DNA of 42,630 nucleotides from Candidatus Uhrbacteria bacterium CG_4_10_14_3_um_filter_41_21 (lineage in GTDB: Bacteria; Patescibacteriota; Patescibacteriia; UBA9934): positions 1 to 42,630 of the forward strand of contig PFJC01000054.1 of NCBI GenBank assembly GCA_002782865.1, given 5' to 3'. A program made the position numbers and the translations under genes. Below, one piece after another: positions 11,323 to 29,086 of the stretch (position 1 is its first letter; each line of letters begins with the position of its first letter). Below the pieces are notes generated by a model. It searched no databases. It was not told the DNA's origin and saw only the letters and a list, made by a program, of their open reading frames with translations.

Positions 11323-11718
11323 TTATACCCCAATTTGGCTTTTGCTATCTAATCCGTAGGGGTCAACTTTGCAAAAAATATTAACAATATTTATATCTGG
11401 CAATTCACGCTCCAGTCTTTCTTGAAGTTGAGTTCTATAAGAATTTGCTAAATTGCTAGCCGGGGCGTGTCTGCAACTAAGCGTTAACTGGTCGCTTACA
11501 AAAGAAATAGCGCGAATATCATCACGCAGATTAGGTTCAATTAAATCATCCAGGATCTTGTTTGCAAACTTTACAGCCATGGCGGCTTTTATTTGCCAGC
11601 CAATTCCGTGACGACCAACGGCGTCGCTTAAAATTCCGCCAATTGGCGCTGCGTTTTTGCTAAACCGGCGCTGACGATTTTTATTAACTGGTTTTGTATT
11701 GTTATCAGACCAGGTCAT
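11323..11718 (-). CDS. DUF721/DciA-like small protein
   Basis: KILDDLIEPNLRDDIRAISFVSDQLTLSCRHAPASNLANSYRTQLQERLE resembles DUF721-type proteins; overlaps the helicase start. Confidence 0.4.
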   Translation of the reverse strand: MTWSDNNTKPVNKNRQRRFSKNAAPIGGILSDAVGRHGIGWQIKAAMAVKFANKILDDLIEPNLRDDIRAISFVSDQLTLSCRHAPASNLANSYRTQLQERLERELPDINIVNIFCKVDPYGLDSKSQIGV

Positions 11719-14630
11719 ACATCACTAAATTCGCAGATATCTTTAAAATCACAATAAGAACACATAAATCCGGGTTTGGCAGAAAAATCAGATTTTTTTA
11801 TGGCGTCTACAGTTTCTAGAATTTCATTTTCTAGTTTTTCTACATCTTTTTCTTTTGGCTCAAAACTAACACAAGAGTTGTCTTCTAAATAATGGTAAGT
11901 CAGTTTTTTTACTTTTATCGGTGGATTAAAACATTGTTCTACTGCTATGGCATAAAGCAAAAGTTGACGACGGTCTTGCCAGTCAAGTTTTATTTTTGCC
12001 TGGCCGGTTTTGTAATCAATAATTTCGTAACCGTCTTCAATCTTATCGATTCTGTCAATTCGACCTTTAATGGCAACGCCACGAATTTTTAGTGTAAAAC
12101 CTTTTTCTAAAAATGCTACTTCCGGTTTTTGCTTTTGTAGAATTTTATAATAATCAGTTATGGCTCGTTTTCCGTTTTCAAAATATTCCAGCTTGATTTC
12201 CTCGTTTGGATACCATTCATCTATCCAATTATCTTCGTAAATTTGCAGCATCTCGCTCAGGTCAATCAAGCTGGTAGTTCCCTCTTGGTCAAACAGAGTA
12301 GCTTGCTTACGAACTTGCGACTCCATAATTTTTTGCATGGAATTATGCATTGATTTTCCAAAACTCATTTGATGTTTGCCAAAAACAGGAATCTTTAAAA
12401 TGTGAGCAAATTTATATTGTAGTGGGCAGGTAGAAAAAGCTGCAATTTGGGTAAAAGAAAGCGTAGCCGGTAGCTTATAGCTGATAGCTTTTAGGTTGGG
12501 GTCGTTTGTTTTTATTTGTTCAGGCTGATTAAAAGCACCCGTTATGTTTATGGGTTTCGTCTCGATCTCAAGCTCTGCCAAAAACCGCGACGGTTTTCGT
12601 TTTCTGGTTCCTCCGTAGTCGTCAGCTGAAAATAGAAAAACTCCTTCTTTGGCTCTGGTGAGCGCCACATAAAATAGTCGTCTTTCTTCTTCAATATGAA
12701 AATCACCTTCCGAGTTTAATCTTTCTTTTATTAAGCCTTCCGGAATTTCAATTGGATCAGATCTTCTGGTTGAAGGAAATCTTTGTTCAACCAGGTTAAT
12801 TATGAACACATATTTAAATTCCAATCCTTTTGAGGCGTGAACGGTCATTACATTTATAACATCAGGCCCGGCCTCAATATCAGTTTTAAGTCCACCGGCT
12901 TCGCCTGCGTTTCGTTCGTGTTCAAACTCTTCTAAAAAGGCATGAAGTGATTTATCTTCGGCTCCAACTTCGAATTTTTTAATTCTGGCAAAAAATTGCT
13001 GAAGCAGATCATTTTGTTCCATTTGTTCCCTATCATCCAATTTCATCACCTCACCGAGTAGCCCTGATTGCTTAATAGTTTCAACAAAAACTTCGCCCGC
13101 AGATTTTCGTCTGGCAATTTCGCGTAAATTGTGGAGCAGTAAAAGTAAATCACGGATTTTTGTTTTGCCTTCATCACTAATGTTAAGTGCTGTTTTCATG
13201 GCGTCTAGCATCGAAATCCCTTTAAGCCGACAGTAAAGTGAAAGCTCGGCAATATCTGCACTTCTTATGCCAAGAATTGGATGGGAAAGAATTCGATACA
13301 TTGCCGGACTGGTGTGCGATTGATCTAAAACCCGCAGATATGCTAAAGCGTCAATAATAATCGGCTTTGTGTACAGTCCGGAAAGCGCCATAAAACGGTA
13401 TGGCAAGCGAATTGAGTCCATTGCTTCTAAAAACGGTTCAGCACTGTCATTGGCGCGAGTAAGAATACAAAAATCATGCCAGTTACAATCATCTTGCTTT
13501 TTTAATTCTATTATTTTTTCAATTACAGCTGATACTTCGTCGTCGATTGAGTCTGAATGGTAATGCTCAATTTTGCCTTCTTCCTGGCGGTGTGCTACTA
13601 ATTTTTTGTTTAAGTTCTCTTTAACCTCTAGGCGATTTGGATTATTTTTTTGGATTAAAGTGTAAGCCTTGTCTAAAATTTGAGCGCGACTGCGGTAGTT
13701 TTTATTTAAGACAATATTTTTTGCACTTGGAAAATCTTCACGGAAAAGCATGATGTTTGAAAGTGATGCTCCGCGAAATTTATAAATTGATTGGTCGTCG
13801 TCACCAACAACGGTGATGTTGTATGGTCCTTTTGTTAAAAGTTTGATTAGTTCGTATTGAGCAAAGTTTGTGTCTTGGAACTCATCAACTAAAATGTATT
13901 TAAATTGATCTTGATATTTTTTAAGGATTTTTGGTCGCTTACGAAACAATTCGATTGTATAGGAAACAAGATCGGCAAAGTCGAGCGCTTGATTTTCAAG
14001 TAAGATTTGTTGATAAAGATGATAAGCGCCGGCAATCTCGCTAATGCGTTCAATTTCAGAAAGATCGGCTGCTTGTTCTTCGGACGCCACCCCTTCAAAA
14101 CTGTCAGTATTCATTTTTAAGTTTTGAGCAAACTGCAAATATTCGTCCGGAGAAACTACCTCGTCTTTTATTCTAGAAAAATGTGATAGCATTGCTCGAA
14201 TAAATCTGGTTGGATTTCCGCGTGGTCGATAATAATCCAAATTAAATCTATCCAGATTTTTTCGCATTAAAAGAAAAGTATCTACATCATCCAGAAGATT
14301 GAACTGATCCGGCAGGCCAATTTCGAGCGCATTTTCATGGAGTACGCGCTCACAAAAAGCGTGAAAGGTTGAGATCCAGAGATCAATATAACCAATTGGT
14401 AAAAGCTGGTCCACTCGCTCTTCCATTTCAGTAGCAGATTTTTCAGTAAAAGTAAGCGCCAACACTTCATCTGGTTTGGCTTTTTGTTGTTCTATTAACC
14501 AAGCAATGCGCTGGGTGATTGCTGTGGTTTTTCCGGTTCCAGCACCGGCGATTATCATTAAAGGCCCCTCACCGTGGGTAACGGCGGCAAGTTGCTCTTC
14601 GTTTAGATTTTCAAGGAGATTATCGGGCAT
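11715..14630 (-). CDS. UvrD/PcrA-like superfamily 1 helicase fused to a C-terminal PD-(D/E)XK nuclease with AddB/Cas4-like cysteines
   Basis: Walker A AGAGTGKTTAIT; VDEFQDTNFAQYELI; GDDDQSIYKFRGA; VMTVHASKGLEFKYVFI; EIIDYKTG; CSYCDFKDIC. Confidence 0.9.
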   Translation of the reverse strand: MPDNLLENLNEEQLAAVTHGEGPLMIIAGAGTGKTTAITQRIAWLIEQQKAKPDEVLALTFTEKSATEMEERVDQLLPIGYIDLWISTFHAFCERVLHENALEIGLPDQFNLLDDVDTFLLMRKNLDRFNLDYYRPRGNPTRFIRAMLSHFSRIKDEVVSPDEYLQFAQNLKMNTDSFEGVASEEQAADLSEIERISEIAGAYHLYQQILLENQALDFADLVSYTIELFRKRPKILKKYQDQFKYILVDEFQDTNFAQYELIKLLTKGPYNITVVGDDDQSIYKFRGASLSNIMLFREDFPSAKNIVLNKNYRSRAQILDKAYTLIQKNNPNRLEVKENLNKKLVAHRQEEGKIEHYHSDSIDDEVSAVIEKIIELKKQDDCNWHDFCILTRANDSAEPFLEAMDSIRLPYRFMALSGLYTKPIIIDALAYLRVLDQSHTSPAMYRILSHPILGIRSADIAELSLYCRLKGISMLDAMKTALNISDEGKTKIRDLLLLLHNLREIARRKSAGEVFVETIKQSGLLGEVMKLDDREQMEQNDLLQQFFARIKKFEVGAEDKSLHAFLEEFEHERNAGEAGGLKTDIEAGPDVINVMTVHASKGLEFKYVFIINLVEQRFPSTRRSDPIEIPEGLIKERLNSEGDFHIEEERRLFYVALTRAKEGVFLFSADDYGGTRKRKPSRFLAELEIETKPINITGAFNQPEQIKTNDPNLKAISYKLPATLSFTQIAAFSTCPLQYKFAHILKIPVFGKHQMSFGKSMHNSMQKIMESQVRKQATLFDQEGTTSLIDLSEMLQIYEDNWIDEWYPNEEIKLEYFENGKRAITDYYKILQKQKPEVAFLEKGFTLKIRGVAIKGRIDRIDKIEDGYEIIDYKTGQAKIKLDWQDRRQLLLYAIAVEQCFNPPIKVKKLTYHYLEDNSCVSFEPKEKDVEKLENEILETVDAIKKSDFSAKPGFMCSYCDFKDICEFSDV

Positions 14631-14693: not shown

Positions 14694-16250
14694 TTACATA
14701 TCGTTTCCGGAATAACTTAGATTTAACGATTTATTGCAGAGCGGAAAATCGGGAACAATATTTCCTGGACCGATTTCACCAAATAATGGCCAATTGCAAA
14801 ATGATGGATCTCTTACCACGCAACGCTCAATAACACCATTTTTTATCTGAACGATAGTTATAATTTCACCGCGACAAGATTCAACAGCCGAGATTCCCAA
14901 GCCGTCATTATTTTTGTTTGTTGATGATATGTTATCTTTTTTGATTGTTTTAATAATTTGGTTGATCATGGCGGTACTGACTTTTAATTCACGATAACGC
15001 ATTTTGAATCGAGAATAAACATCACCGATTTCCAGCATTATTATCTTAGGCTTCAATTCCGCATAACTTGCATATGGATGATCGCGTCTGACATCAATAT
15101 CAATCCCCGATGCCCTGGCTGTTAAACCAACCGCACCATAAGCTAAGGCGGCTTCTTTTTTTAAAATTCCCGTTGTTTCCAATCGTTCTCTCAATCCATC
15201 ATTATCGTGACATATTTTAATCAAATTTTGCAGATCATCATTTGCTTTATTGATAGTCATTTGAATATTATCCAATTCCGTCGATGATAAATCCTGTGAT
15301 AGACCACCCGGAATAATGAGGCCTCGCCAAAAACGGTTTCCGCACACTTCTTGTGACAAGCGCATCAGTCTTTCTTTAATTTTAAATCCTTGTGAGGCTA
15401 TAACCGTAAATCCGGTACCCATTCCACAGATATTTGAAATATCAAAAATATGCATTGTAATGCGCTCAATTTCGTTTAATAGTGTCCGTAATTGACGAGC
15501 GCGAGGCGAAATTTTTATATCGGAAATACTCTCAATGGCTTGTGAAAAAGCCAAGGTGTGAGAAATGGCCATATCGCCGGAAATTTTTTCTATGAATGGC
15601 AAAGCTTCGATGGGACTTTTGTTTTCGAGGATTTTTTCAATACCTTTATGTGTAAAGAATAACTTACCTTCCAATGTAATTATTCGTTCGCCTATGACAT
15701 TGAAACGAAAATGACCTGGTTCGATTATACCGGCGTGAATCGGTCCAACCGGAATTTCATAAATTCCTTCTGCTCCGGTTACATGATGCATTGGATATAT
15801 GGTATTTGCGTGTTTGAGTTTTGTATTCCAGGCGAAATCTTTTCTTAATGGGAATGTGTTTAAGGGAATATTTTCATGGTGAACAAGGCGGCGAGGATCA
15901 GGGTGGCCGATCGCAACAATACCGAACATATCCATTGCGTATCTTTCATACCAGTGAGCTGACATAATTGTTTTCGTCAGAGACTCATAAGTAGGGTCAG
16001 ATTCGGGTAAAGCCGTTGATATTTGCAGCCATTCACCCGTTTCGTCTAGGCTGAATACGGCGTGCAGTCCGAAGGAATGATTTGATTGACGATTGTCGGT
16101 TGCGTAAAGCACAGCCATTCTTAAGGTAAATTCATTGCTCAATCGACTGCAAACGATTGTAAATATTTCGCGATTCAAACTGACGAATGTAGTTGATTTT
16201 TCAGTTTCACCGACAATACCAAGTTTTGTTAATATTTCTTGAACGAGCAT
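14694..16250 (-). CDS. Hydrogenase-4 component G-like large subunit (NuoC + NuoD-like fusion) lacking Ni-ligand cysteines
   Basis: YERYAMDMFGIVAIGHPDPRRL; VGPIHAGIIEPGHFRF; L1 position EKISGDMAISH; C-terminal RDPSFCNWP. Confidence 0.88.
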   Translation of the reverse strand: MLVQEILTKLGIVGETEKSTTFVSLNREIFTIVCSRLSNEFTLRMAVLYATDNRQSNHSFGLHAVFSLDETGEWLQISTALPESDPTYESLTKTIMSAHWYERYAMDMFGIVAIGHPDPRRLVHHENIPLNTFPLRKDFAWNTKLKHANTIYPMHHVTGAEGIYEIPVGPIHAGIIEPGHFRFNVIGERIITLEGKLFFTHKGIEKILENKSPIEALPFIEKISGDMAISHTLAFSQAIESISDIKISPRARQLRTLLNEIERITMHIFDISNICGMGTGFTVIASQGFKIKERLMRLSQEVCGNRFWRGLIIPGGLSQDLSSTELDNIQMTINKANDDLQNLIKICHDNDGLRERLETTGILKKEAALAYGAVGLTARASGIDIDVRRDHPYASYAELKPKIIMLEIGDVYSRFKMRYRELKVSTAMINQIIKTIKKDNISSTNKNNDGLGISAVESCRGEIITIVQIKNGVIERCVVRDPSFCNWPLFGEIGPGNIVPDFPLCNKSLNLSYSGNDM

Positions 16251-16254
16251 ATGA

Positions 16255-17715
16255 TTAAATAGATTTTGCTATATTATTCAGTACTTGCAGTGCTTGTGGT
16301 GTCGTAGCCAGTAAACCGGTAATTATTATTAATATAAGTTGAACAGACATTACGGAATGGGTAATGTTCCATTTTTCTTTTGGAAATACTTTACGGTCGT
16401 TTTCTTGGCCATACAACATTGTGATAACGCTGTGTAACATGCTGAATGTAGCTATTGATAATGAAATCAAAATCAGTGAAGACAACCAAGGATGTTGTTG
16501 CAAGCCCAAACCCAATGTCATGAATTCGCTCGTAAACAGAGCGGATGGCGGCACGGCTAAAATCATTAAAAGTCCAAGCGTGGTCAGCGTGCCGGTTATA
16601 GGTAATTTACGCATAACATTTCTTACACCTTCAATTTTTGTAGTTCGATATGACAATAATATTTCCCCGGCTCCAAAAAATAGCAATGGTTTTGTTAATG
16701 TATGAGCGATAGTGTGCAACAAGGCTGCAACCAATCCGATTGGCCCGAGACTGATTGCAAATGCCATAATACCCATATGTTCAATACTTGAATAAGCCAG
16801 CATGCGTTTATAATTGCGTTGTTGTAATAGAAATAAACTCGCGACTGTCACGGAAAGAACGCCAAAAGCTAAAAAGATGTGGTCAGTCCATTGTTCTGAG
16901 CTAAGTGATATGTCCACAATACTTTTAAAACGTAAAATTGAGTATAAGGCTATATTTAATAGTATCCCCGATAACAACGCGCTGATAGGTGATGGTGTTT
17001 TACTGTGTGCGTCCGGTAACCAAGTATGCATTGGAACAAAACCTACTTTTGTACCAAGTCCTATAAAAATGAAAATAAAACCATAACGAATTGTGTCGTG
17101 ATTAAGAAATTCAGCTTTATTTTGTAGAGACGAGAATGAAAGAGAAGTAAAGGAAAATAGACCGGCATCAGTCACACCGGTATATATAAAAATCATCATA
17201 CCCAGAAGACCTAAACTGATACCGATTGAACAAAGGATTATATATTTCCAAGCGGCTTCGATGGCGGCATCGCCACGATACATGGCAACAAGCAAGGTTG
17301 TGGCAAGAGTTGTACCTTCGAGACCAATCCAGAGGATACCTAAATTATCCGCCAATACCGTCATTAACATACTAAGGATGAATATCGGTAGGAGACAAAA
17401 ATACAATCTTACTTGGTTTAAAGATATGATTTTTTCACCATATTCAACATTTATGTAACGGTAACTGACTATGGTCGCGGTTAAATAACAAAAAGAAATC
17501 AAAATTACAAAGAGCAAACTGAACTCATCTGCCTTGAATAAACCGCCAATGGATAAAGTAATTTTATTTATTAAGGCTAATAAAGCGACGCCGATTATAC
17601 TGACAGCGGTTACAGTGGACATCAAAACAGAGAATCGTCGTATTTGTGACTCTGTTTGAGCGAAATAGACAACAACAGTAGTCAATAACAAAAGAGCTGA
17701 AAAAATAGACATCAT
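16255..17715 (-). CDS. Hydrogenase-4 component F-like antiporter-type membrane subunit
   Basis: GLGTKVGFVPMHTWLPDAHSKTPSPISALLSG; LWIGLEGTTLATTL; AHTLTKPLLFFGAG. Confidence 0.88.
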   Translation of the reverse strand: MMSIFSALLLLTTVVVYFAQTESQIRRFSVLMSTVTAVSIIGVALLALINKITLSIGGLFKADEFSLLFVILISFCYLTATIVSYRYINVEYGEKIISLNQVRLYFCLLPIFILSMLMTVLADNLGILWIGLEGTTLATTLLVAMYRGDAAIEAAWKYIILCSIGISLGLLGMMIFIYTGVTDAGLFSFTSLSFSSLQNKAEFLNHDTIRYGFIFIFIGLGTKVGFVPMHTWLPDAHSKTPSPISALLSGILLNIALYSILRFKSIVDISLSSEQWTDHIFLAFGVLSVTVASLFLLQQRNYKRMLAYSSIEHMGIMAFAISLGPIGLVAALLHTIAHTLTKPLLFFGAGEILLSYRTTKIEGVRNVMRKLPITGTLTTLGLLMILAVPPSALFTSEFMTLGLGLQQHPWLSSLILISLSIATFSMLHSVITMLYGQENDRKVFPKEKWNITHSVMSVQLILIIITGLLATTPQALQVLNNIAKSI

Positions 17716-17717
17716 AT

Positions 17718-18347
17718 TTATTCGGTAAGTTCGGTTAGACTTGAGGTGTCACCAGTTGCGTATTCTTCTTGAATTTGGCGACTTAAAATAGCCATAATGA
17801 TTACACCGGTTGTCAACGTTAATAATATTCCCGCTTCTATGGTTAATGGAATTCCAATCATTGAAAGTATTCCGAATGTCGCTATTCCATTTTCAATGGT
17901 CATAAATCCTATGATTTGAGAATATAAATCTTTGCGTATAATCATTAATATAAATCCGATAATTATTAAAGATGAGGAAACAAATGGTATTACCGGAAAG
18001 AGTTGGGTCATGTAAGCGATCCCCATTAACATAATTGCCAGTATGAAGTAGGTCGCCGTTGGTTTCAAATAAAATTTCAGTTGCATTGAAGCATGCACAC
18101 GACGAGCCGAATTAGTCATTATTATTGGTATCGCAATGACCTTAATAATTATTGTTCCTATGACAACATACATTTCATGTTCGTCACCGTGTATTAGCGA
18201 ATTAGTTAGGATTAATCCGGCCAAACACAGTGATGCAAAAACAAAATGGCGTATTAAAGCCGGTAGTCGATGCTTACTGATTAATATTAATGAAAACATC
18301 AGCAAGCCGGCTGTAAATAAATTGCTCCAAAGAGTCAATGACATCAT
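17718..18347 (-). CDS. Hydrogenase-4 component E-like membrane subunit
   Basis: 209-aa multi-TM protein in the conserved hyfE position; IGFMTIENGIATFGI. Confidence 0.75.
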   Translation of the reverse strand: MMSLTLWSNLFTAGLLMFSLILISKHRLPALIRHFVFASLCLAGLILTNSLIHGDEHEMYVVIGTIIIKVIAIPIIMTNSARRVHASMQLKFYLKPTATYFILAIMLMGIAYMTQLFPVIPFVSSSLIIIGFILMIIRKDLYSQIIGFMTIENGIATFGILSMIGIPLTIEAGILLTLTTGVIIMAILSRQIQEEYATGDTSSLTELTE

Positions 18348-19270
18348 AAGGTATTTGTAATTAAAGCTATTACCAAGCCGGCGAGACCAAGTAAAAATGC
18401 GCCAGTTAAATATTCTTGCATTCTATAGAGACGTATTTTTGTGATTATCGATTCAAAAAACGCAAGTAGCGCCATCGAAATTATCAGCTTGGCGATCGTC
18501 AGAATAATAATGGTTGCGATTGAAATAAAATCAACGCTCTCAAGCAAAAATAAAGATGGCCAAATGATATTTGAAAGTAGTAATGCAAAGATAGTGATTT
18601 TTATGTAACTTGCGAACTCCAACATTGCCAAATATGGACCGGAGTATTCAAGCACCATCGCTTCATGAATCATTGTGAGCTCCAAATGGGTAGATGGGTT
18701 ATCAATCGGATATCGTTTATTTTCAGACAAAGCAATCATAATCAAGGCGCCGATACTTAAGATTATGTGCGGAGTTTGTATAATAGTAATTTGCGCGGCA
18801 ACCATATCGCCGATATCCGATGTACCGGTGACAACTGCGAAACCTGCCAATGTGATAATTATCGTCGGTTCCAAAAGCGCGGAAATTGTCATCTCTCTGG
18901 AAGCACCCATTCCGCCAAAGGCACTGGCAGAATCAATTCCGCCAAAAACAAGGAAGATCGCGCCAATCATCAAAATGCCAGCAACCACAAACAAATTGCT
19001 TGAATAACCAAAAGTAATCAAGGGCAGAATGAAAGCCAAGACAACAGTGCTACCAAGAACGACATAAGGTACCAAACGAAAAACCCAAGTTGTATTGGTT
19101 GAAATTACCATTTGCTTGCGCATCAAAGTGGCAAGAGAAAAATAAGACAGAAACGGATTAGCTCCCCTCCTGCCTTGTAGTCGTGCTTTGAAAAATCGAA
19201 CCAAGCCGATGCAAAAAGGTGCAAGACTTAGGATTATAACCAACTGAATAAAGCCGAGAATTATTGTCAT
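18344..19270 (-). CDS. Hydrogenase-4 component C / NuoH-like membrane subunit
   Basis: RRGANPFLSYFSLATLMRK; YPIDNPSTHLELTMIHEAMVLEYSG. Confidence 0.9.
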   Translation of the reverse strand: MTIILGFIQLVIILSLAPFCIGLVRFFKARLQGRRGANPFLSYFSLATLMRKQMVISTNTTWVFRLVPYVVLGSTVVLAFILPLITFGYSSNLFVVAGILMIGAIFLVFGGIDSASAFGGMGASREMTISALLEPTIIITLAGFAVVTGTSDIGDMVAAQITIIQTPHIILSIGALIMIALSENKRYPIDNPSTHLELTMIHEAMVLEYSGPYLAMLEFASYIKITIFALLLSNIIWPSLFLLESVDFISIATIIILTIAKLIISMALLAFFESIITKIRLYRMQEYLTGAFLLGLAGLVIALITNTL

Positions 19271-21258
19271 ATTGATAGAAAAACAGTGCTAATCAAAGCT
19301 AGTACAATCAATGATATATAAAATTGGATTATTCCATTCTGTATCCGTCGTACAAGTGTGGATAAGAGAAGTGTAAGACGCGCTATCGGTCGGTAAAATA
19401 ATTCAAACCAAATGTGTTTTCTATTTAATTCGATATGACGTGAAATCATCCATTTATTGTTGGGGATTATGCGCGTGTCAATGATTTTTTTATTAAAACT
19501 GAACAGTATGTTGAAGAAAAAGCGAATAGGAGCGGAAAATGCCGTTGCGGTGTATTCCATTTGAGAGTTTATCGGTTGCCCACAGTCCCATGTGTGATAG
19601 GCTCGTTCAAATTTTCTTTTGCTGAAAATATACCGCAAAGAAAATACCAGTATGATAGAGCCAATTATCAAACTCCCGATCAGTAAAGGATTATAGTTAC
19701 CGTCTGTGAGAGCTAATGATGTTTTAAGACCGTTATTTATCGTTAGAGAACCTAATCCGATTATTTTTAGTATGGATGGCGCTCCGAGTCCAAGGATAAC
19801 GGATGCGATGACTGTCAGGGCGACAGACAATGAGAGCAAAAAATTCGGTTCTTTGGCGTGTGTGATTTCTTTACTGCGCGAGCCGGCTAGGAAGATTAGA
19901 GCAAACATTCTTACCATTGCAAAAATTGATAAACCACCGACAAAAGAGAAAGTCGCCAACACCGTAATCAATAAACCTTGATTGAGTTGGGAAATTGAAA
20001 TAATTGTGTTTATGATTTCTTGGAGGAATATCCATTCACCGATAAAACCGGAGAATGGTGGTAAGGCGACAGCAGTAAGGATTAAGAACAGTATCAATCC
20101 TGAAAATTTTGGCATATAGTGGGCAAGTCCCCCCATCACTTCCAAACTTCGGCTATGAGCTTGGCTCATAATCACCCCGGCTCCCATAAATAATCCTGAT
20201 TTAAAAAGTGCGTGTGCGAAAGTGTGAATTATCACTGCCGTGATCGCTGTTGTAAATAACAGCGGCTGATTGATTGATTGAGCAAATAATGCCACTCCAA
20301 CCATTGAAAAAAGTAAGCCTAAATTCTCCATTGATGAATAAGCCAGTATTTTTTTTAAATCATTTTCAACTACCGCATATAGAACGCCATAGACGGCGGT
20401 TATCAATCCTATGAAAATAATAATATATGTCCAACCTGTTGGGAGTGTCGGCCAAACAGATAACGCCAGTCGTAGAAATCCGTACAGTGCCACCTTCAAC
20501 ATTACACCGGACATCAAAGCCGAAATATTGCTTGGTGCTTGAGGATGAGCCTCCGGCAGCCAAACATGAAATGGCCATAAGCCTGCCTTTGATCCGAAAC
20601 CAAAGACAGCCAGAGCAAATGTTACCCCGAGCAACCCAATTGATAAATCTGAAGATATTATTGAAATTTCATCGAATGATGCAAAAAATAAACCCTTTGA
20701 TAAGATTGAAAAACTGGCGAGAATCGCACCGGCGCCAAGATGTGTCATTATCAAATAAAGCAAGCCGGCTTTAATAGATTCAGTCTGCTTATCGGTAAAA
20801 ACCAAAAATAAAGAAGTGAAGGACATTATTTCCCAGCCTGCTAAAAAACTGATTGGGGTCGTTGAAATTAAAACAAGTTGCATGCCAAAAATAAACAACG
20901 CCATTAAGAACGTGACTGACTGTAAATTATATGTTTTTGAGTATAGCGGTAAATATCCGATACTGAATAAAGCAACTATACAAATAACTGTATTTACTAT
21001 GAAGAAAAATAATGCGGACAAATAGTCAATTTCAAAGACTGATCCGAAAAGAATCGAGCTGCTGCCGATAATAATATTAGCTTGGGCACTAAGAAAAAAT
21101 AAAATACTGGAAATAGCGCCAACCAAAGCGGCTATACTCAGTATTGCTAAACTTATTTTTTGAATAATAAATCGGCGTCCGAGAAGCGCGATAATGGAGG
21201 CTGAAAATGAGCCAATCAAAGAAAACCAAATTAAAAATACAATCATTTGGGTGTTCAT
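19267..21258 (-). CDS. Hydrogenase-4 component B-like antiporter-type membrane subunit
   Basis: FGFGSKAGLWPFHVWLPEAHPQAPSNISALMSG; FLAGWEIMSFTSLFLV; FAHALFKSGLFMGAG; AYHTWDCGQP. Confidence 0.9.
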   Translation of the reverse strand: MNTQMIVFLIWFSLIGSFSASIIALLGRRFIIQKISLAILSIAALVGAISSILFFLSAQANIIIGSSSILFGSVFEIDYLSALFFFIVNTVICIVALFSIGYLPLYSKTYNLQSVTFLMALFIFGMQLVLISTTPISFLAGWEIMSFTSLFLVFTDKQTESIKAGLLYLIMTHLGAGAILASFSILSKGLFFASFDEISIISSDLSIGLLGVTFALAVFGFGSKAGLWPFHVWLPEAHPQAPSNISALMSGVMLKVALYGFLRLALSVWPTLPTGWTYIIIFIGLITAVYGVLYAVVENDLKKILAYSSMENLGLLFSMVGVALFAQSINQPLLFTTAITAVIIHTFAHALFKSGLFMGAGVIMSQAHSRSLEVMGGLAHYMPKFSGLILFLILTAVALPPFSGFIGEWIFLQEIINTIISISQLNQGLLITVLATFSFVGGLSIFAMVRMFALIFLAGSRSKEITHAKEPNFLLSLSVALTVIASVILGLGAPSILKIIGLGSLTINNGLKTSLALTDGNYNPLLIGSLIIGSIILVFSLRYIFSKRKFERAYHTWDCGQPINSQMEYTATAFSAPIRFFFNILFSFNKKIIDTRIIPNNKWMISRHIELNRKHIWFELFYRPIARLTLLLSTLVRRIQNGIIQFYISLIVLALISTVFLSI

Positions 21259-21265
21259 ATCAATA

Positions 21266-21793
21266 TTAATTTCTCAAGGATTGTAAAATAACACTAAGTA
21301 TTTGCTTTGGACTTGGTGGGTCGCCCGGAATCTTAATATGAACAGGGATTACCGATTCTACCGGTCCGACAACGGCATATGAATCCTTCCAGATTCCACC
21401 TGTACAAGCGCCATCACCGATCGCGACAACAATACACGGATGAGGCGCTGCCTCATAGGTGGTTTTTACGGCGCGCTCTAGATTTCTGGTCACCGGGCCA
21501 GTTACCCATAGCATGTCGGCGTGGCGCGGTGAAGCAACAAAGCTTAAGCCAAATCTTTCTATATCATAATAAGCATTTCCAAGTGCTATTAATTCCATTT
21601 CCTCGGCATTTGTTGACCCACCATCAACGGCTCTGATACGCAAAGAGCGACCATTATAAAGCTTTTTTATAATGGTCTTAAGTTCGGTACCTATAGTCTC
21701 AAGATCAACATCTTTATTTTTTTTGTAATTATTTTCCGGTTCAGTCAGATTAGAATTTAGAAAAAGATACTTCAGTAATTTGATTTTAGACAT
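21266..21793 (-). CDS. Hydrogenase-4 component I / NuoB-like small subunit lacking all four [4Fe-4S] ligand cysteines
   Basis: VASPRHADMLWVTGPVTRN fold signature; cluster motif positions read DGGSTNAEEMEL, GDGACTGG, PGDPPSP. Confidence 0.85.
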   Translation of the reverse strand: MSKIKLLKYLFLNSNLTEPENNYKKNKDVDLETIGTELKTIIKKLYNGRSLRIRAVDGGSTNAEEMELIALGNAYYDIERFGLSFVASPRHADMLWVTGPVTRNLERAVKTTYEAAPHPCIVVAIGDGACTGGIWKDSYAVVGPVESVIPVHIKIPGDPPSPKQILSVILQSLRN

Positions 21794-21946: not shown

Positions 21947-22354
21947 CTACAGGGGGCGGTTTTTGGGGTCAGCGAAGAAGGATCGCTGACCTGGCGCACT
22001 GCCGCTCACTAGTCTGGCATTGGCATAGGCGCGCAGAGCCGGACCGATGATGATGCGGTCTTCTTCTTTCGAGCTTCTCAGTACGAGTGCGATGACATTT
22101 CTGTCTTGCATCAGCTTGAATAGTGCTACCCTTCGTTCAGGGCTGACGTGCGGATCCATGTACGAGAAAGCGACCACAGCCACGTTCGGACTATTGCGAG
22201 GCTGGTAGCTCATGACACCTTTGTCCATGGCCACAGGTGTCGTTGGCACGGCCGTAATTCCGAGCTTTTCGAACACGGTGGCGACATCTTTCATCGACAG
22301 GTGACCTGTGTCTTCTTCAGTCAGTGGGAAGCAGAAGATGAATGGTTCCGACAT
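21947..22354 (-). CDS. Orphan 135-aa protein of unknown function, GC-rich
   Basis: ORF preceded by an AGGAGG Shine-Dalgarno on the minus strand (CCAGGAGGTATTCATG) and flanked by terminators. Confidence 0.6.
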   Translation of the reverse strand: MSEPFIFCFPLTEEDTGHLSMKDVATVFEKLGITAVPTTPVAMDKGVMSYQPRNSPNVAVVAFSYMDPHVSPERRVALFKLMQDRNVIALVLRSSKEEDRIIIGPALRAYANARLVSGSAPGQRSFFADPKNRPL

Positions 22355-22463: not shown

Positions 22464-22898
22464 CTACTGCTTTCCAACATCCCTATACTTCCCTTTTCTG
22501 GCTACCTTGTAACGCGCCAATTCTCTTTCTAGGTGAACTAAGGCGTCGGCATAGACAACATCACCTTGATTTCTTGCTTCTTGCAAGCGCTTTTCGGCCA
22601 AGTCTTTAGCTTTTTCAATTTCTTCTAAGGTCAATTCTTCAGATCTTTCGGCAGAATCAGCCAAAACCACAACCGAATTTTCGTTCCTAACTTCAATTAG
22701 TCCGGTTGAAACAGCTAGAAGTGATTCATTTCCACCATCTTTTAATCTCATCTCACCGGAGCGCAAAAGCGAAACCAATGGGGCATGATTTGGTAAAATA
22801 GTAATCTCACCGATTTCTGTCATAACAGAAATCGAATCAACCGAGTCTTCGAAAACGGTTCTTTCTGGTGTTACGATTTTTAGGTTAATTTTCTGCAT
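22464..22898 (-). CDS. atpC: ATP synthase epsilon subunit
   Basis: LKIVTPERTVFEDSVDSISVMTEIGEITILPNHAPLVSLL. Confidence 0.93.
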   Translation of the reverse strand: MQKINLKIVTPERTVFEDSVDSISVMTEIGEITILPNHAPLVSLLRSGEMRLKDGGNESLLAVSTGLIEVRNENSVVVLADSAERSEELTLEEIEKAKDLAEKRLQEARNQGDVVYADALVHLERELARYKVARKGKYRDVGKQ

Positions 22899-22903
22899 AG
22901 GTC

Positions 22904-24289
<1,386 letters not shown>

Positions 24290-24327
24290 TTATCTTTTAA
24301 GTCGCATAGGGCCTATAAGACCTATAG

Positions 24328-25236
24328 TTAATTATTCATTGATTCAAGAGCCGCTTTTCCGGTTGAAATTTCGGCAATCTCTTGAGTAATTCCAGCCTGG
24401 CGGATTCTGTTATAGGTAAACTTTAATTCTTCAAGCATTTCGTTAGCGGCGTCGCTGGCGTTACGCATGGCCATCATGCGGGCAGAGTGTTCAGACGCAG
24501 TCGACTCCAGAAGCGCTTGGTAAAGCATTGTTTCAATCAGTCTTGGCAATGTTCTATTTAACACCTCTTGCGCGTTTGGCTCAAAAGTATATTCAGTTTT
24601 TCCGTTTCCATTTGTTCCATTTGTGGTTTTATCGACATTACCAAGTTTCTTGTCTGGAGTGCTGAATGGTAGCAGCTCTAGAAGTCTTGGTTTTTGCTCA
24701 AGCCCGGAAATATAGTCTGTGTACCCAAGTACAACTTTTTTGTACTCACCATTCATGTAACCGTCTAGGATAAGTTTTGAGATTGGTAAAATATCACCAA
24801 ACACCGGTTTGTTAGTCAGGCCTTCAAAAGTTGCTATAACATTAACTTTTTTCTTAGACAGCGCCATGTCCCCCTTTTTACCAACTGATATCAGATCAAA
24901 AGGCGTTTCTTTATTTTCTCGCAGTAACTCAATTGATTTTTTTACCATGTTTGAGTTATATCCTCCCGCCAGTCCACGGTCTGATGTAAATAAAACTAAA
25001 AGTATTTTTTCAGCTTCATCATTGCTTTGCAAAAGTGGATGAGAAACATTTGGAGCATAAATTCCCACTGAGGTAATTGTTTGCCAGGAAAGTTTTGCAA
25101 ATGGGCGAGTGTCTGTAGCTGCCGATGTTGCCCTACGCATTTTTGAAGCAGCCACAAGCTCCATCGCCTTGGTGATTTTCATCGTGTTGGCGATTGATTT
25201 GATTCTGCGTTTTACAACTTTTGCGTTAGCACTCAT
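24328..25236 (-). CDS. atpG: ATP synthase gamma subunit
   Basis: VKRRIKSIANTMKITKAMELVAASKMRRA; SDRGLAGGYN. Confidence 0.96.
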   Translation of the reverse strand: MSANAKVVKRRIKSIANTMKITKAMELVAASKMRRATSAATDTRPFAKLSWQTITSVGIYAPNVSHPLLQSNDEAEKILLVLFTSDRGLAGGYNSNMVKKSIELLRENKETPFDLISVGKKGDMALSKKKVNVIATFEGLTNKPVFGDILPISKLILDGYMNGEYKKVVLGYTDYISGLEQKPRLLELLPFSTPDKKLGNVDKTTNGTNGNGKTEYTFEPNAQEVLNRTLPRLIETMLYQALLESTASEHSARMMAMRNASDAANEMLEELKFTYNRIRQAGITQEIAEISTGKAALESMNN

Positions 25237-25307
25237 ATTTTAGCTCTTAGCTTATAGCTGTTAGCTATTAGTTTTCCCTAATAGCTAAGGGCTAATAGCT
25301 AATGGCT

Positions 25308-26810
25308 TTAGTTAAATGTCTTCTCAAATTCTTCTATGTAGTTTTTGATTTCTTTTTTTGAACTGTCTGAAATTTCCTTTTCGTCATGAATTGTTTTTAA
25401 CACACCAGAGGCACTAGACTCCATAAAGTGCAAAAACTTTTCTTCAAACTCCAATATTTTTCCAACTTCAACATCGTCTAGATAACCTTCGTTTAGTACA
25501 AAAATCATCACTGATTGTTTTTCAAAAGGAATCGGTGAATACTGTTTTTGCTTCATTAACTCCATTGAACGAGCTCCGCGATCCAGCTGTTTTTTTGTAG
25601 CTTCATCAAGGTCGGTAGCGAATTGGGCAAAAGCTTCAAGTTCACGATACTGAGCCAAATCAACTTTAAGTGTTTTTGAAACTGATTTCATGGCTTTGGT
25701 TTGAGCAGCTGATCCTACTCGAGAGACTGAAAGCCCAACATTAAGAGCCGGTCTTTGACCTTTGTAAAAAAGATCGCTTTCCAAGAAAATCTGACCGTCA
25801 GTAATTGAAATAACATTAGTTGGAATATAAGCGGACACATCGCCAGCTTGGGTTTCAATAATCGGCAAGGCTGTAATTGATCCACCACCAAATTCATCGC
25901 TTAGTCGGGCAGAACGCTCAAGTAGTCTTGAGTGCAGGTAAAACACATCTCCCGGATAAGCTTCGCGTCCTGGTGGACGACGAAGTAGAAGCGAGATTTC
26001 ACGATAAGCCCAGGCGTGTTTGGAAAGATCATCATAAATTACCAAAACATCTTCGCCTTTAGCCATAAAGTATTCAGCAATTGCACAACCTGCGTAAGGC
26101 GCAATGTAGGCCAAAGACGCTGGGTCACTGGCTCCGGCAAGCACAATAGTTGTGTATTCCATGGCCCCTGCTTTTTCCAGGCGAGCTGTGATAGCTGCAA
26201 TCTTTGATTCTTTTTGTCCAATTGCTACATAAATACACTTCATGTTTTCACCTTTTTGGTTGATGATAGTATCAATTGCAATTGCTGTTTTTCCAGTTTG
26301 ACGGTCGCCGATAATAAGTTCGCGTTGACCACGACCGATCGGGATTAAGGCGTCAATAGCTTTAAGTCCGGTGTGAACCGGGGTATCAACTGATTTTCGA
26401 GTAATAACACCTGGAGCGATCTTTTCGATAGCCTGCAAGTTGGTAGCTGTGATTTTTCCCTTTCCGTCCAGTTCGACACCGAGTGGATTGATAACACGAC
26501 CAACAACACTTTCGTCAACAGGAATTGAAAGAATTCGTCCGGTTGATTTTACAGTGTTTCCTTCTCTGATTTGACTTGGATCGCCAAGCACAATTGCACC
26601 AACTGATTCTTCCTCTACGTTAAGCGCAACTCCGAAAACGTTTTTTCCGAAATCAACAAGTTCCATTGATTTAGCATCAGCTAGTCCGCTGATGCGAACA
26701 ACTCCGTCGGCAACCGAAAGCACTGTTCCAACTGATTCAACCTTAGCGTCAGATTGAAAAGCTTGGACCTGCTTTTTTAATTCTTCAATTATTTCACTCT
26801 TGGTAGTCAT
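25308..26810 (-). CDS. atpA: ATP synthase alpha subunit
   Basis: [52 protein letters not shown]. Confidence 0.98.
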
Positions 26811-26837
26811 ATATAGGTCTTATTGGTCCTATGGGAC

Positions 26838-27221
26838 CTATTTCATTAATACTTGTTTCAAATTTTGTAATTTGCCTACGACCGAGCCGTCTATTCTAGT
26901 ATCATCAATTCTGATTACGGCACCACCGATTAGTTGCTCGTCAACTCTTTCTTTTAAATCAGCTCCTGGCGCGATGCTATTAATCATTTTTCTGGTTTCA
27001 TCATTTAGTGTGTGAGCAGAAAGTATTTTAATGCTTGAGGCGCCGTATTTTTCTTTCCAGATCGTATGGATTGCTCTTTCAATGTCTCGCCATTTATCAA
27101 GCATCTGTTTTTCTTTGAGAATATTTACAAACTCTTTGATAATTGCTGTTACATCTTCTGATTTTCGGCCTTCAACAGCTTCTATCAAAATCCGCGCAAA
27201 TTGTTTTGCGTCTATTTTCAT
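26838..27221 (-). CDS. atpH: ATP synthase delta subunit (OSCP-like, short)
   Basis: Position between atpF and atpA; LKERVDEQLIGGAVIRIDDTRIDGSVVGKLQNLKQVL. Confidence 0.85.
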   Translation of the reverse strand: MKIDAKQFARILIEAVEGRKSEDVTAIIKEFVNILKEKQMLDKWRDIERAIHTIWKEKYGASSIKILSAHTLNDETRKMINSIAPGADLKERVDEQLIGGAVIRIDDTRIDGSVVGKLQNLKQVLMK

Positions 27222-27222
27222 A

Positions 27223-27789
27223 CTAAATCATTTTACGAACCGCTTCTTCTGCAAGTGACTTTGATTTTGATTCATCGATTTGATCTTCTGCAATTCTGGT
27301 GGCTGCCTTCATGGCAATATCAATGATTTCTTTTTTTAGTTCTCGCATCATGGCTTCTTTTTCCGCGACTAACTGTTCTTTGCCTTTTACAATCACTCTT
27401 TCAACTTCCCGTTTGGCTGCGCCAATGATTTCCTCTCGTCTTTCTTCTCCTTGCTTGTGAGCTTTGTCAGCGATTTCTTGAGCTTCGCGTCTGGCAGTGT
27501 TCATTACTTCATCGCGTTCTTTTTCTATTTCTGAAACTCGTTTTTCAATCTCATCGGCTTGCTTAACGCTTTTTTCGATTTTTTCTTCGCGTTCATCTAG
27601 CATTCTTACAATTGGTCGGTATGCAAAGCGCCACAAGACAATTAAAACAAGTAAAAAGTTTATAAGTTGAGCGGTAAACATTTGACCGTTTAATCCAAAC
27701 TGACCGGCAACGGCCACAATTGGATTTTCTGATTCAGTTTGAGTTTCCTCATGTGTTTCCTGAATTGTTCCTGCTGTTTCTTCGTCCAT
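27223..27789 (-). CDS. atpF: ATP synthase b subunit
   Basis: One TM then long charged helix: LWRFAYRPIVRMLDEREEKIEKSVKQADEIEKR. Confidence 0.92.
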   Translation of the reverse strand: MDEETAGTIQETHEETQTESENPIVAVAGQFGLNGQMFTAQLINFLLVLIVLWRFAYRPIVRMLDEREEKIEKSVKQADEIEKRVSEIEKERDEVMNTARREAQEIADKAHKQGEERREEIIGAAKREVERVIVKGKEQLVAEKEAMMRELKKEIIDIAMKAATRIAEDQIDESKSKSLAEEAVRKMI

Positions 27790-27799
27790 AGATCTCGTC

Positions 27800-27827
27800 G
27801 TAGGAGCACGGCATGCCGTGCTCCTAC
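27800..27827. repeat. Perfect 28-bp palindrome GTAGGAGCACGGCATGCCGTGCTCCTAC (REP-like)
   Basis: 14-bp arms with no loop; preceded by ATCTCGTC shared with the second palindrome. Confidence 0.85.
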
Positions 27828-27867
27828 TTTGTAAATTCTTAATAAATTCATTCTCGATAATCTCGTC

Positions 27868-27896
27868 GTAGGGGCGAGGCGTCGCCTCGCCCCTAC
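27868..27896. repeat. Palindrome GTAGGGGCGAGGC-GTC-GCCTCGCCCCTAC (REP-like)
   Basis: 13-bp perfect arms, 3-nt loop; preceded by ATCTCGTC. Confidence 0.85.
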
Positions 27897-27918
27897 GGAC
27901 ATCATCAATGTCAATTTA

Positions 27919-28137
27919 TTAAAGCGTAAATGCAATAATAAGTGCATAAATAGCGATCGCTTCCGCGAAAGCCATTCCAAGAAGCATTGGAGTAAATAGT
28001 TTTCCGGATGCCTCTGGGTTTCGTCCGATTGATTCCATGGCTTTCATACCAATGAATCCAATCGCAAGAGCTGGTGCAATTGATCCAACTCCAATGGCAA
28101 GTGCTTTTGCCAAAAGTGTCATTGTCTCTGCGTCCAT
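27919..28137 (-). CDS. atpE: ATP synthase c subunit
   Basis: GVGSIAPALAIGFIGMKAMESIGRNPEASGKLFTPMLLGMAFAEAIAIYALIIAF. Confidence 0.95.
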   Translation of the reverse strand: MDAETMTLLAKALAIGVGSIAPALAIGFIGMKAMESIGRNPEASGKLFTPMLLGMAFAEAIAIYALIIAFTL

Positions 28138-28169
28138 AATATTAGTTATTTATGTTATTAACGGGACAA

Positions 28170-28199
28170 TCTGTTTCCACCAAGCTTGATGAAAACAGA
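28170..28199. repeat. Inverted repeat TCTGTTT...AAACAGA in the atpB-atpE spacer
   Basis: 7-bp perfect arms. Confidence 0.5.
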
Positions 28200-28207
28200 C
28201 AGTCGCA

Positions 28208-29086
28208 CTAAGCATGAGCTTCTGCTTGTTTGTGTGTTTCACTGTGTTCCTCTTCGTGGTTGCCGTGACTCATTGTTGCCACCACCATAAAAGCAAGGGT
28301 AAGCATGGCAAAAACCGTGGCCTGAATAATCCCAACTAAAAGTTCCAGAAAAATAAATGGAATTGGAATTATATAAGACATTAGGCTAAGCATTACTGTC
28401 ATTAGTACTTCACCGGCAAAAATGTTTCCAAAAAGTCGAAGTGAAAGTGAAAGTGTTTTAGCGAACTCACCGATGATTTCAATTAGTCCGATGAAAAATT
28501 CAACCACAGCTACGATTATTGCCATTGGTCCTTTTTTAAGTGACAGCCAAATACCTTTAAGGTTGAAGAATTTACTAAAGTGATTAAATATTCCCTGAGA
28601 CTTCATTCCTGCCAAGTGTGTTGATAAAATTGCAACAAAAGCAATAGCGAGGGTCATATTGAGATCTGCTGTTGCTGGACGAAGTAGTGGAATCAATTCT
28701 AATTCTTCATGCATATAGCCCCAAATTCCAATTGATCCAGTCCCTGGAATTTGTCCCATCCAATTACTTACGAGAACAAAAAAGAAAATTGTCGCAATGA
28801 GTGGTAGGAATTTTCTGGCATTTTTTTTGTCTTGAGTAACTTTTTCTATCTCAAGTAGAGCGAACTCAATAACAGTTTCTATAATATTATGAATTCCTTT
28901 TGGAACAAGTGATTTTCGACGCGAAGCGATTATGGCCACTAAAATAAAAAACCCAACCGCAATGTAGGCGTTGAGCATTGAATTTGTGACTGTAAAATGA
29001 CCGATTTCAAAAATCGGCTCAGCTGCGAGCGGTATGCTTACAAATGCGGTTTTAATCCCTCGGTCCTTGTTCATAAAGTTTCGCAT
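28208..29086 (-). CDS. atpB: ATP synthase a subunit
   Basis: FAKTLSLSLRLFGNIFAGEVLMTVML; PLIATIFFFVLVSNWMGQIPG. Confidence 0.96.
   Translation of the reverse strand: MRNFMNKDRGIKTAFVSIPLAAEPIFEIGHFTVTNSMLNAYIAVGFFILVAIIASRRKSLVPKGIHNIIETVIEFALLEIEKVTQDKKNARKFLPLIATIFFFVLVSNWMGQIPGTGSIGIWGYMHEELELIPLLRPATADLNMTLAIAFVAILSTHLAGMKSQGIFNHFSKFFNLKGIWLSLKKGPMAIIVAVVEFFIGLIEIIGEFAKTLSLSLRLFGNIFAGEVLMTVMLSLMSYIIPIPFIFLELLVGIIQATVFAMLTLAFMVVATMSHGNHEEEHSETHKQAEAHA

Follow-up and report, generated by a model that had tools for sequence, protein, structure and literature searches.

What does a relative of complex I and the group 4 hydrogenases do when no recognisable redox site is left in it? The question is raised by a six-gene cassette of Candidatus Uhrbacteria, located in the 42,630-nucleotide stretch of DNA analysed here (hereafter the window) and headed by the gene for a NuoB-like small subunit, EhrS. 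The genome from which the window comes measures 883 kb, is 98.6% complete and contains one NuoB gene and one NuoD gene.

The small subunit has lost every ligand of the N2 cluster

In the ORF list, the EhrS reading frame extends from 21793 to 21266 on the minus strand and begins with ATG; the plus strand across 21266-21793 is riddled with stops. The gene and its former cluster ligands map as follows.

21266..21793, minus strand: EhrS-like small subunit (NuoB/HycG/MbhJ family) without N2 ligands, 175 aa, PF01058 2e-24
21602..21613, minus strand: old CxxC ligand pair, now T61-N-A-E64, aligned to HyfI C44 and C47
21410..21415, minus strand: old third ligand, now D127-G128, aligned to HyfI A110-C111
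21320..21322, minus strand: old fourth ligand, now D158 in PGDPP, aligned to HyfI C141

The best EhrS relatives of solved structure are MbhJ (6cfw_J, 3e-27) and HycG (7z0s_G, 5e-24), and the motif region aligns without gaps. In the alignment with E. coli HyfI (MG1655 record), C44 is replaced by T61, C47 by E64, C111 by G128 and C141 by D158; EhrS lacks all four ligands of the proximal (N2) [4Fe-4S] cluster. A preliminary description of this gene had claimed exactly this loss, reading the CxxC pair as Thr and Glu, YGACGNSGG as IGDGACTGG (Cys to Gly) and PGCPP as PGDPP (Cys to Asp). All three readings held, and the coordinates were right, with the gene itself lying on the minus strand.

The altered motifs are not peculiar to this protein. 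Across 81 homologues, position 61 is Asp, Thr or Ser, position 64 is Glu, Cys, Thr or Ala with Pro and Val also seen, and position 158 is Asp in 56 and Asn in 23 (Asp or Asn in 79/81). D127 is 98% conserved, G59 and E65 100%, and S60 and N62 98%. The number of ligand cysteines is bimodal: 104 of 124 aligned homologues have none or one of the four, and the 20 with three or four are hydrogenases, complex I and N2-type Ehr. This pattern is far beyond chance, although 124 is an upper count because some loci yielded the same gene twice.

Two ways of rescuing a cluster were considered and rejected. Another alignment register cannot supply the ligands, since neither C120 nor the shifted C130 is conserved (position 130 is Cys in 39/81 and Ile in 38/81, position 120 Cys in 21/81). 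A cluster held by a single surviving cysteine together with Asp or Thr is likewise ruled out; position 64 is Cys in 25/81 homologues, but its variation to Ala, Thr, Pro and Val shows that it is not a ligand.

The dN/dS ratio of EhrS between close pairs from Patescibacteria and Methanosarcina is 0.04-0.12, similar to or below that of neighbouring genes, and the protein is under strong purifying selection. Its AlphaFold2 model has a pLDDT of 91.4 and matches MbhJ in Foldseek (TMt 0.84). The preliminary description had named two outcomes that would refute it, cysteines supplied from a different register and a pseudogene whose close homologues keep them; the first is excluded by the unconserved C120 and C130, the second by the conserved changes and the low dN/dS.

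A conserved polar pocket replaces the NiFe site

The preliminary description had also stated that the NiFe site was gone. This held for the large subunit, EhrL, in which CGIC has become SGDM and CYSC has become SYSG, so that all four NiFe cysteines are missing.

14694..16250, minus strand: EhrL-like large subunit (fused NuoC/NuoD, HycE type) without NiFe ligands, 518 aa, PF00346 8e-44, PF00329 2e-20
15573..15581, minus strand: old N-terminal NiFe motif (CGIC), now S224-G225-D226 (S 96%, G 98%, D 100% in the family)
14706..14735, minus strand: old C-terminal NiFe motif (CxxC), now N506-K507-S-L-N-L-S512-Y-S-G515 (N, K, S512 and G 97-98%)

The quinone-headgroup ligands are changed as well, with I176 at the position of E. 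coli NuoCD H224 and G225 at that of Y273. The AlphaFold2 model of EhrL (pLDDT 89.7) matches HycE (7z0s_E) in Foldseek with a TMq of 0.93. Its sole poorly predicted stretch, residues 169-185, is nevertheless among its most conserved, a pattern that in the model would fit a loop facing a partner. Ehr complexes with and without N2 agree, with few exceptions, at S224, G225, D226, N506, K507, S512 and G515, and all of these positions except G225 differ from hydrogenases, in which the position of K507 is Gly. A near-invariant polar pocket stands where the NiFe site once was.

The membrane arm is intact and adjoins an ATP synthase operon

The six genes lie on one strand in the order EhrS, NuoL-like, NuoH-like, HyfE-like, NuoN-like and EhrL, with the ATP synthase operon directly upstream on the same strand.

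19267..21258, minus strand: NuoL/HyfB-like antiporter subunit (EhrA type), 663 aa, PF00361 1e-48
18344..19270, minus strand: NuoH/HycD-like subunit, 308 aa, PF00146 5e-28
17718..18347, minus strand: HyfE (NuoK)-like subunit, 209 aa, NF008556 4.9e-15
16255..17715, minus strand: NuoN/HyfF-like antiporter subunit, 486 aa, PF00361 4.5e-53
22464..29086, minus strand: F-type ATP synthase operon atpB-E-F-H-A-G-D-C
27919..28137, minus strand: AtpE (c subunit), without Na+-type ligand residues

Charged residues of the proton path in the four membrane subunits are about 94-100% identical. In the family, E143, K224, K353 and E408 of the NuoL-like subunit are 98-100% conserved, and E134, E183, D190, E197 and E273 of the NuoH-like subunit, K69, E152 and N153 of the HyfE-like subunit, and E133, K157, K223 and K342 of the NuoN-like subunit are invariant (100%). 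No FeS carrier or flavin subunit is encoded in the six-gene cassette; NuoEFG and NuoI are also absent from it, a statement that covers the cassette only and not the rest of the genome. In nearly all loci the gene order is B-L-H-K-N-CD or L-H-K-N-CD-B, without NuoI, HyfA or NuoEFG. A loop of the NuoH-like subunit (residues 190-200, DNPSTHLELTM, 98-100% conserved in the family) contains two extra residues and a His in place of the Glu of E. coli HyfC and NuoH.

Certain residues are known to mark Na+-type c rings. AtpE lacks them, and the window's ATP synthase is therefore likely to be proton-coupled, an inference from its sequence alone. In 20/80 loci, atp genes are found no more than 5 kb from the cassette, which mostly follows atpC directly, and this same-strand arrangement is common to many Uhr- and Moranbacteria. 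Most of the 80 loci, including all archaeal and Dehalococcoidia ones, are not beside ATP synthase genes. In an Azambacteria MAG (L084, 10001-17438), the cassette interrupts the atp operon between atpG and atpD.

A 135-aa ORF in the gap between atpC and EhrS (21947..22354, same strand) was rejected as a seventh subunit, since it belongs to no Pfam family and matches nothing in the related loci. Downstream of the cassette, a UvrD-like helicase gene occurs in the window (11715-14630) and in several Uhrbacteria loci (L037-L044) as a conserved neighbourhood.

The complex belongs to the Ehr family

The window complex is a member of the energy-converting-hydrogenase-related (Ehr) family, relatives of complex I and group 4 hydrogenases. 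Three features expected of the family are all present. The NiFe cysteines of group 4 kin are missing in the window and in the family (CGIC to SGD, CxxC to SYSG); NuoL-, NuoH-, HyfE- and NuoN/HyfF-type subunits occur with EhrL and EhrS in one cluster; and the tree places the family apart from hydrogenases, 60 Ehr rows, N2-type cassettes among them, separating from Hyf/Hyc/FHL with 100% support. What is missing is N2, a cluster carried by the N2-type members compared here but not necessarily part of the family definition; of its ligands the window EhrS has 0/4. Ehr was described from Geobacter and in a 2013 survey (Marreiros et al.), with function unknown, and members have been reported from Geobacter, Nitrospira, Sulfobacillus, ammonia-oxidising archaea and the M. 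tuberculosis complex. In 2020, Jaffe et al. had already reported Ehr from CPR that lack the NiFe cysteines (PMC7304191). The preliminary description had recognised neither the membership in this described family, nor the published NiFe loss in CPR Ehr, nor that the form also occurs in other genomes. Small subunits without N2 ligands are not mentioned in the literature searched, which did not include the 2013 survey's own text. It is therefore likely that the widespread cluster-free small subunit is undescribed, although Ehr itself and the NiFe loss in CPR are already known.

Known Ehr complexes (Geobacter GSU0739-0745, M. tuberculosis Rv0082-Rv0087, Nitrospira, CPR) have the same complex I-like set with two antiporter-like subunits and no NiFe cysteines. 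Formate hydrogenlyase and hydrogenase-4 (HycB-G, HyfA-I) provide the closest solved fold for EhrL and a near-closest one for EhrS, and share the membrane subunits; compared with them, the window cassette lacks the NiFe site, the proximal cluster, the HycB/HycF/HyfA/HyfH carriers, the HyfD-like third antiporter and maturation genes. The requirements for a group 4 [NiFe] hydrogenase, namely four NiFe cysteines, HypD-type maturation and a proximal [4Fe-4S] cluster, are unmet. Pyrococcus MBH (6cfw), a hydrogenase head on an Mrp-type arm, supplies the top sequence match to EhrS in MbhJ, whereas the window complex has no redox site and no separate Mrp subunits. Respiratory complex I has the homologous NuoB, C, D, H, K, L and N core; unlike it, the cassette lacks the NADH module, N2, the quinone His/Tyr and NuoI. 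The Mrp Na+/H+ antiporter moves ions without electrons through two antiporter-like subunits. Its likeness to the window complex is a proposal, and it lacks the conserved NuoB/CD/H homologues of the latter.

Cluster-free relatives are sparse but scattered

A NuoB homologue is present in 4/23 genomes of the window's GTDB family and in 112/381 of its class, many of the 112 being a different, longer protein; the changed motifs are common to the window and 17 aligned class members. At least 518 encoded relatives turned up when genome contigs were scanned, and the comparison was confined to the 80 best loci. The cluster is absent from 80/81 small subunits of these 80 named-genome loci, the exception being a second copy in L073. 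The bacterial loci come from Uhr-, Moran-, Kaiser-, Magasanik-, Azam-, Staskawicz-, Levy- and Nomurabacteria, Dehalococcoidia, Cryobacterium and others, and the archaeal ones from Methanosarcina, Methanomicrobiales, Altiarchaeales and Bathyarchaeota. MAG names are given as deposited, and some labels (Lentisphaerae, Dadabacteria) may reflect binning errors. Of 380 genomes sampled evenly across the phylum, 14 carry the cluster-free form, which is thus sparse but scattered.

Two loci show individual peculiarities. A Patescibacteria small subunit (L152, G686:C6:61748-62266) contains one in-frame TGA, and its organism may possibly read TGA as an amino acid. The Lentisphaerae-labelled MAG GWF2_38_69 (L073, 17163-17927 and 9932-10468) has two Ehr-like operons side by side; one EhrS is cluster-free and the other has all N2 cysteines and is fused to a two-[4Fe-4S] ferredoxin-like domain.

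N2 was lost inside the Ehr family

The same six-gene cassette with the same EhrL signature and all four N2 cysteines is found on plasmids of Rhizobium, Bradyrhizobium, Azospirillum, Methylovirgula and Methylocalor, and further such plasmid cassettes occur in Cupriavidus, Variovorax, Burkholderia and Paraburkholderia. The Ehr of Rhizobium, Azospirillum, Cupriavidus, Variovorax, Burkholderia and other proteobacteria thus keep the N2 ligands that the window EhrS lacks, while their EhrL pocket (SGD; NKSxNxSYxG) is identical to that of the window and the cluster-free form. This identity indicates that N2 was lost inside Ehr, and the NiFe loss and pocket remodelling either preceded N2 loss or are common to the family. 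It also suggests that the function shared by both forms is probably independent of N2. Intermediates exist: a second Cryobacterium copy (L127) has three N2 cysteines with the fourth changed to Ser, and a Streptomyces plasmid copy (L148) has three with the first changed to Arg.

A concatenated four-subunit tree places the window's clade beside N2-type Ehr (support 94/94). In this tree the cluster-free form is paraphyletic to N2-type Ehr and falls on one side in 0/200 bootstrap trees. Its occurrence in several places suggests that N2 may have been lost repeatedly, but this remains only a possibility, as an AU test did not reject a single cluster-free clade (p 0.147).

A gated ion translocator as a candidate function

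With no NiFe, N2 or quinone-headgroup ligands and no FeS or flavin subunit in the cassette, the complex is without recognisable redox sites. Its folds are predicted by modelling to be intact, and the ion-path residues of its membrane arm are kept. HypD, a UbiA-type prenyltransferase (found in 14/14 control genomes) and heme-copper oxidase (COX1) were not found in the window genome; among 20 related cassette-bearing Patescibacteria, HypD was present in 0/20 and UbiA over cut-off in 3/20. The preliminary description had concluded that neither hydrogenase nor standard electron-transfer chemistry takes place in the peripheral arm any longer. All the tests are consistent with this: the missing NiFe cysteines, the changed quinone positions, the lack of an FeS carrier in the cassette and of HypD, UbiA and heme-copper oxidase in the genome.

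We propose that the window complex is a non-redox, Mrp-like secondary ion translocator gated by a ligand or by conformation, a reading that we consider as likely to be wrong as right, the function being inferred without transport data. In this proposal, the neighbouring ATP synthase, running in hydrolysis, would keep up the membrane proton gradient, and the two antiporter-like subunits with the NuoH/HyfE part would exchange H+ against another cation (Na+ or K+). The EhrS/EhrL head would carry no electrons and act as a gate; the protonation state of the NuoH channel would be set from the S224/D226/K507/S512 pocket, through a conformational change there or the binding of a small ligand or ion. 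N2 may have been lost because such a function needs no electrons. In favor of the proposal are the loss of ligands in both subunits, the near-universal absence of NuoI/HyfA/NuoEFG from the loci, the retained charged residues of the membrane arm, the pocket that is the same with and without N2, the missing HypD, UbiA and COX1, the absence of HypD and rarity of UbiA in relatives, the proximity of atp genes in a quarter of the loci (20/80) and the low dN/dS of EhrS. Against it, the literature searched contains neither a structure nor a transport assay for any Ehr, and most loci, all archaeal ones included, are away from ATP synthase genes. If antiport were all that is required, doing without the gating head, as Mrp does, would be simpler; the conservation of the head suggests some specific role for it. 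The pocket might still bind an unknown cofactor, and because the genome was searched only for HypD, UbiA and COX1, quinone uptake from a host and other reductases are not ruled out.

Other explanations fit less well. The pocket could be a new active site whose non-redox chemistry, for example hydrolysis or metabolite binding and release, powers outward ion translocation. The near-invariance of S224, D226, N506, K507, S512 and G515 across archaea and bacteria, unlike in hydrogenases, goes beyond what a passive scaffold would need, but there is no substrate and no conserved partner enzyme beside the cassette, and the pocket could equally be structural; we regard this alternative as unlikely. Equally improbable is that the complex is still redox-active through another cofactor or electron entry, such as a mononuclear metal on Asp/Ser/Glu, a flavin, or a partner whose gene lies elsewhere. 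In its favor, old Cys sites hold the conserved D127 and D/N158, some homologues have the position-64 Cys, an Ehr of Geobacter is upregulated with formate (PMC7894505), and an earlier paper proposed FDH-Ehr pairs (PMC6349859); yet position 64 also accepts Ala, Thr, Pro and Val, the cassette has no electron carrier, the quinone-site His/Tyr are missing, and the genome has no detected UbiA or heme-copper oxidase. That the complex is an accessory or regulatory part of the Patescibacteria ATP synthase without transport of its own appears very unlikely. It would account for the many Uhr- and Moranbacteria in which the cassette follows atpC on the same strand, and for the cassette within the L084 atp operon, but archaeal, Dehalococcoidia and most other loci are not near atp genes and the full antiporter machinery is kept. 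A decaying hydrogenase remnant or an alignment artefact found no support and is all but excluded by the dN/dS of 0.04-0.12, the wide conservation and the intact predicted folds.

Beyond the gated translocator, a bolder reading would be that of a widespread complex I relative that pumps or exchanges ions without redox chemistry, driven or gated by a new site, specific to a ligand or a reaction, in the old NiFe pocket. Our confidence in it falls a little short of even; if it is true, electrons are not the only possible driver of complex I's long-range coupling machinery. The role of Ehr has been open since its naming, and the cofactor-free form removes most redox hypotheses for that form and, by the shared pocket, perhaps weakens them for Ehr in general. 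The same form can serve as a natural experiment on how ions in the membrane arm are moved by the complex I head; should the arm here work without electrons, its coupling would be conformational or ligand-driven. In Patescibacteria, the form is relevant to the question of why an ATP synthase is retained in genomes that have no respiratory chain. The presence of the cassette in Methanosarcina makes the question testable in a methanogen open to genetic study. About 19/31 genomes of this genus have the cluster-free form (E < 1e-60), and one locus (L169) contains a full six-gene cluster-free cassette at about 5,385,306-5,392,629 in the order L-H-K-N-CD-B.
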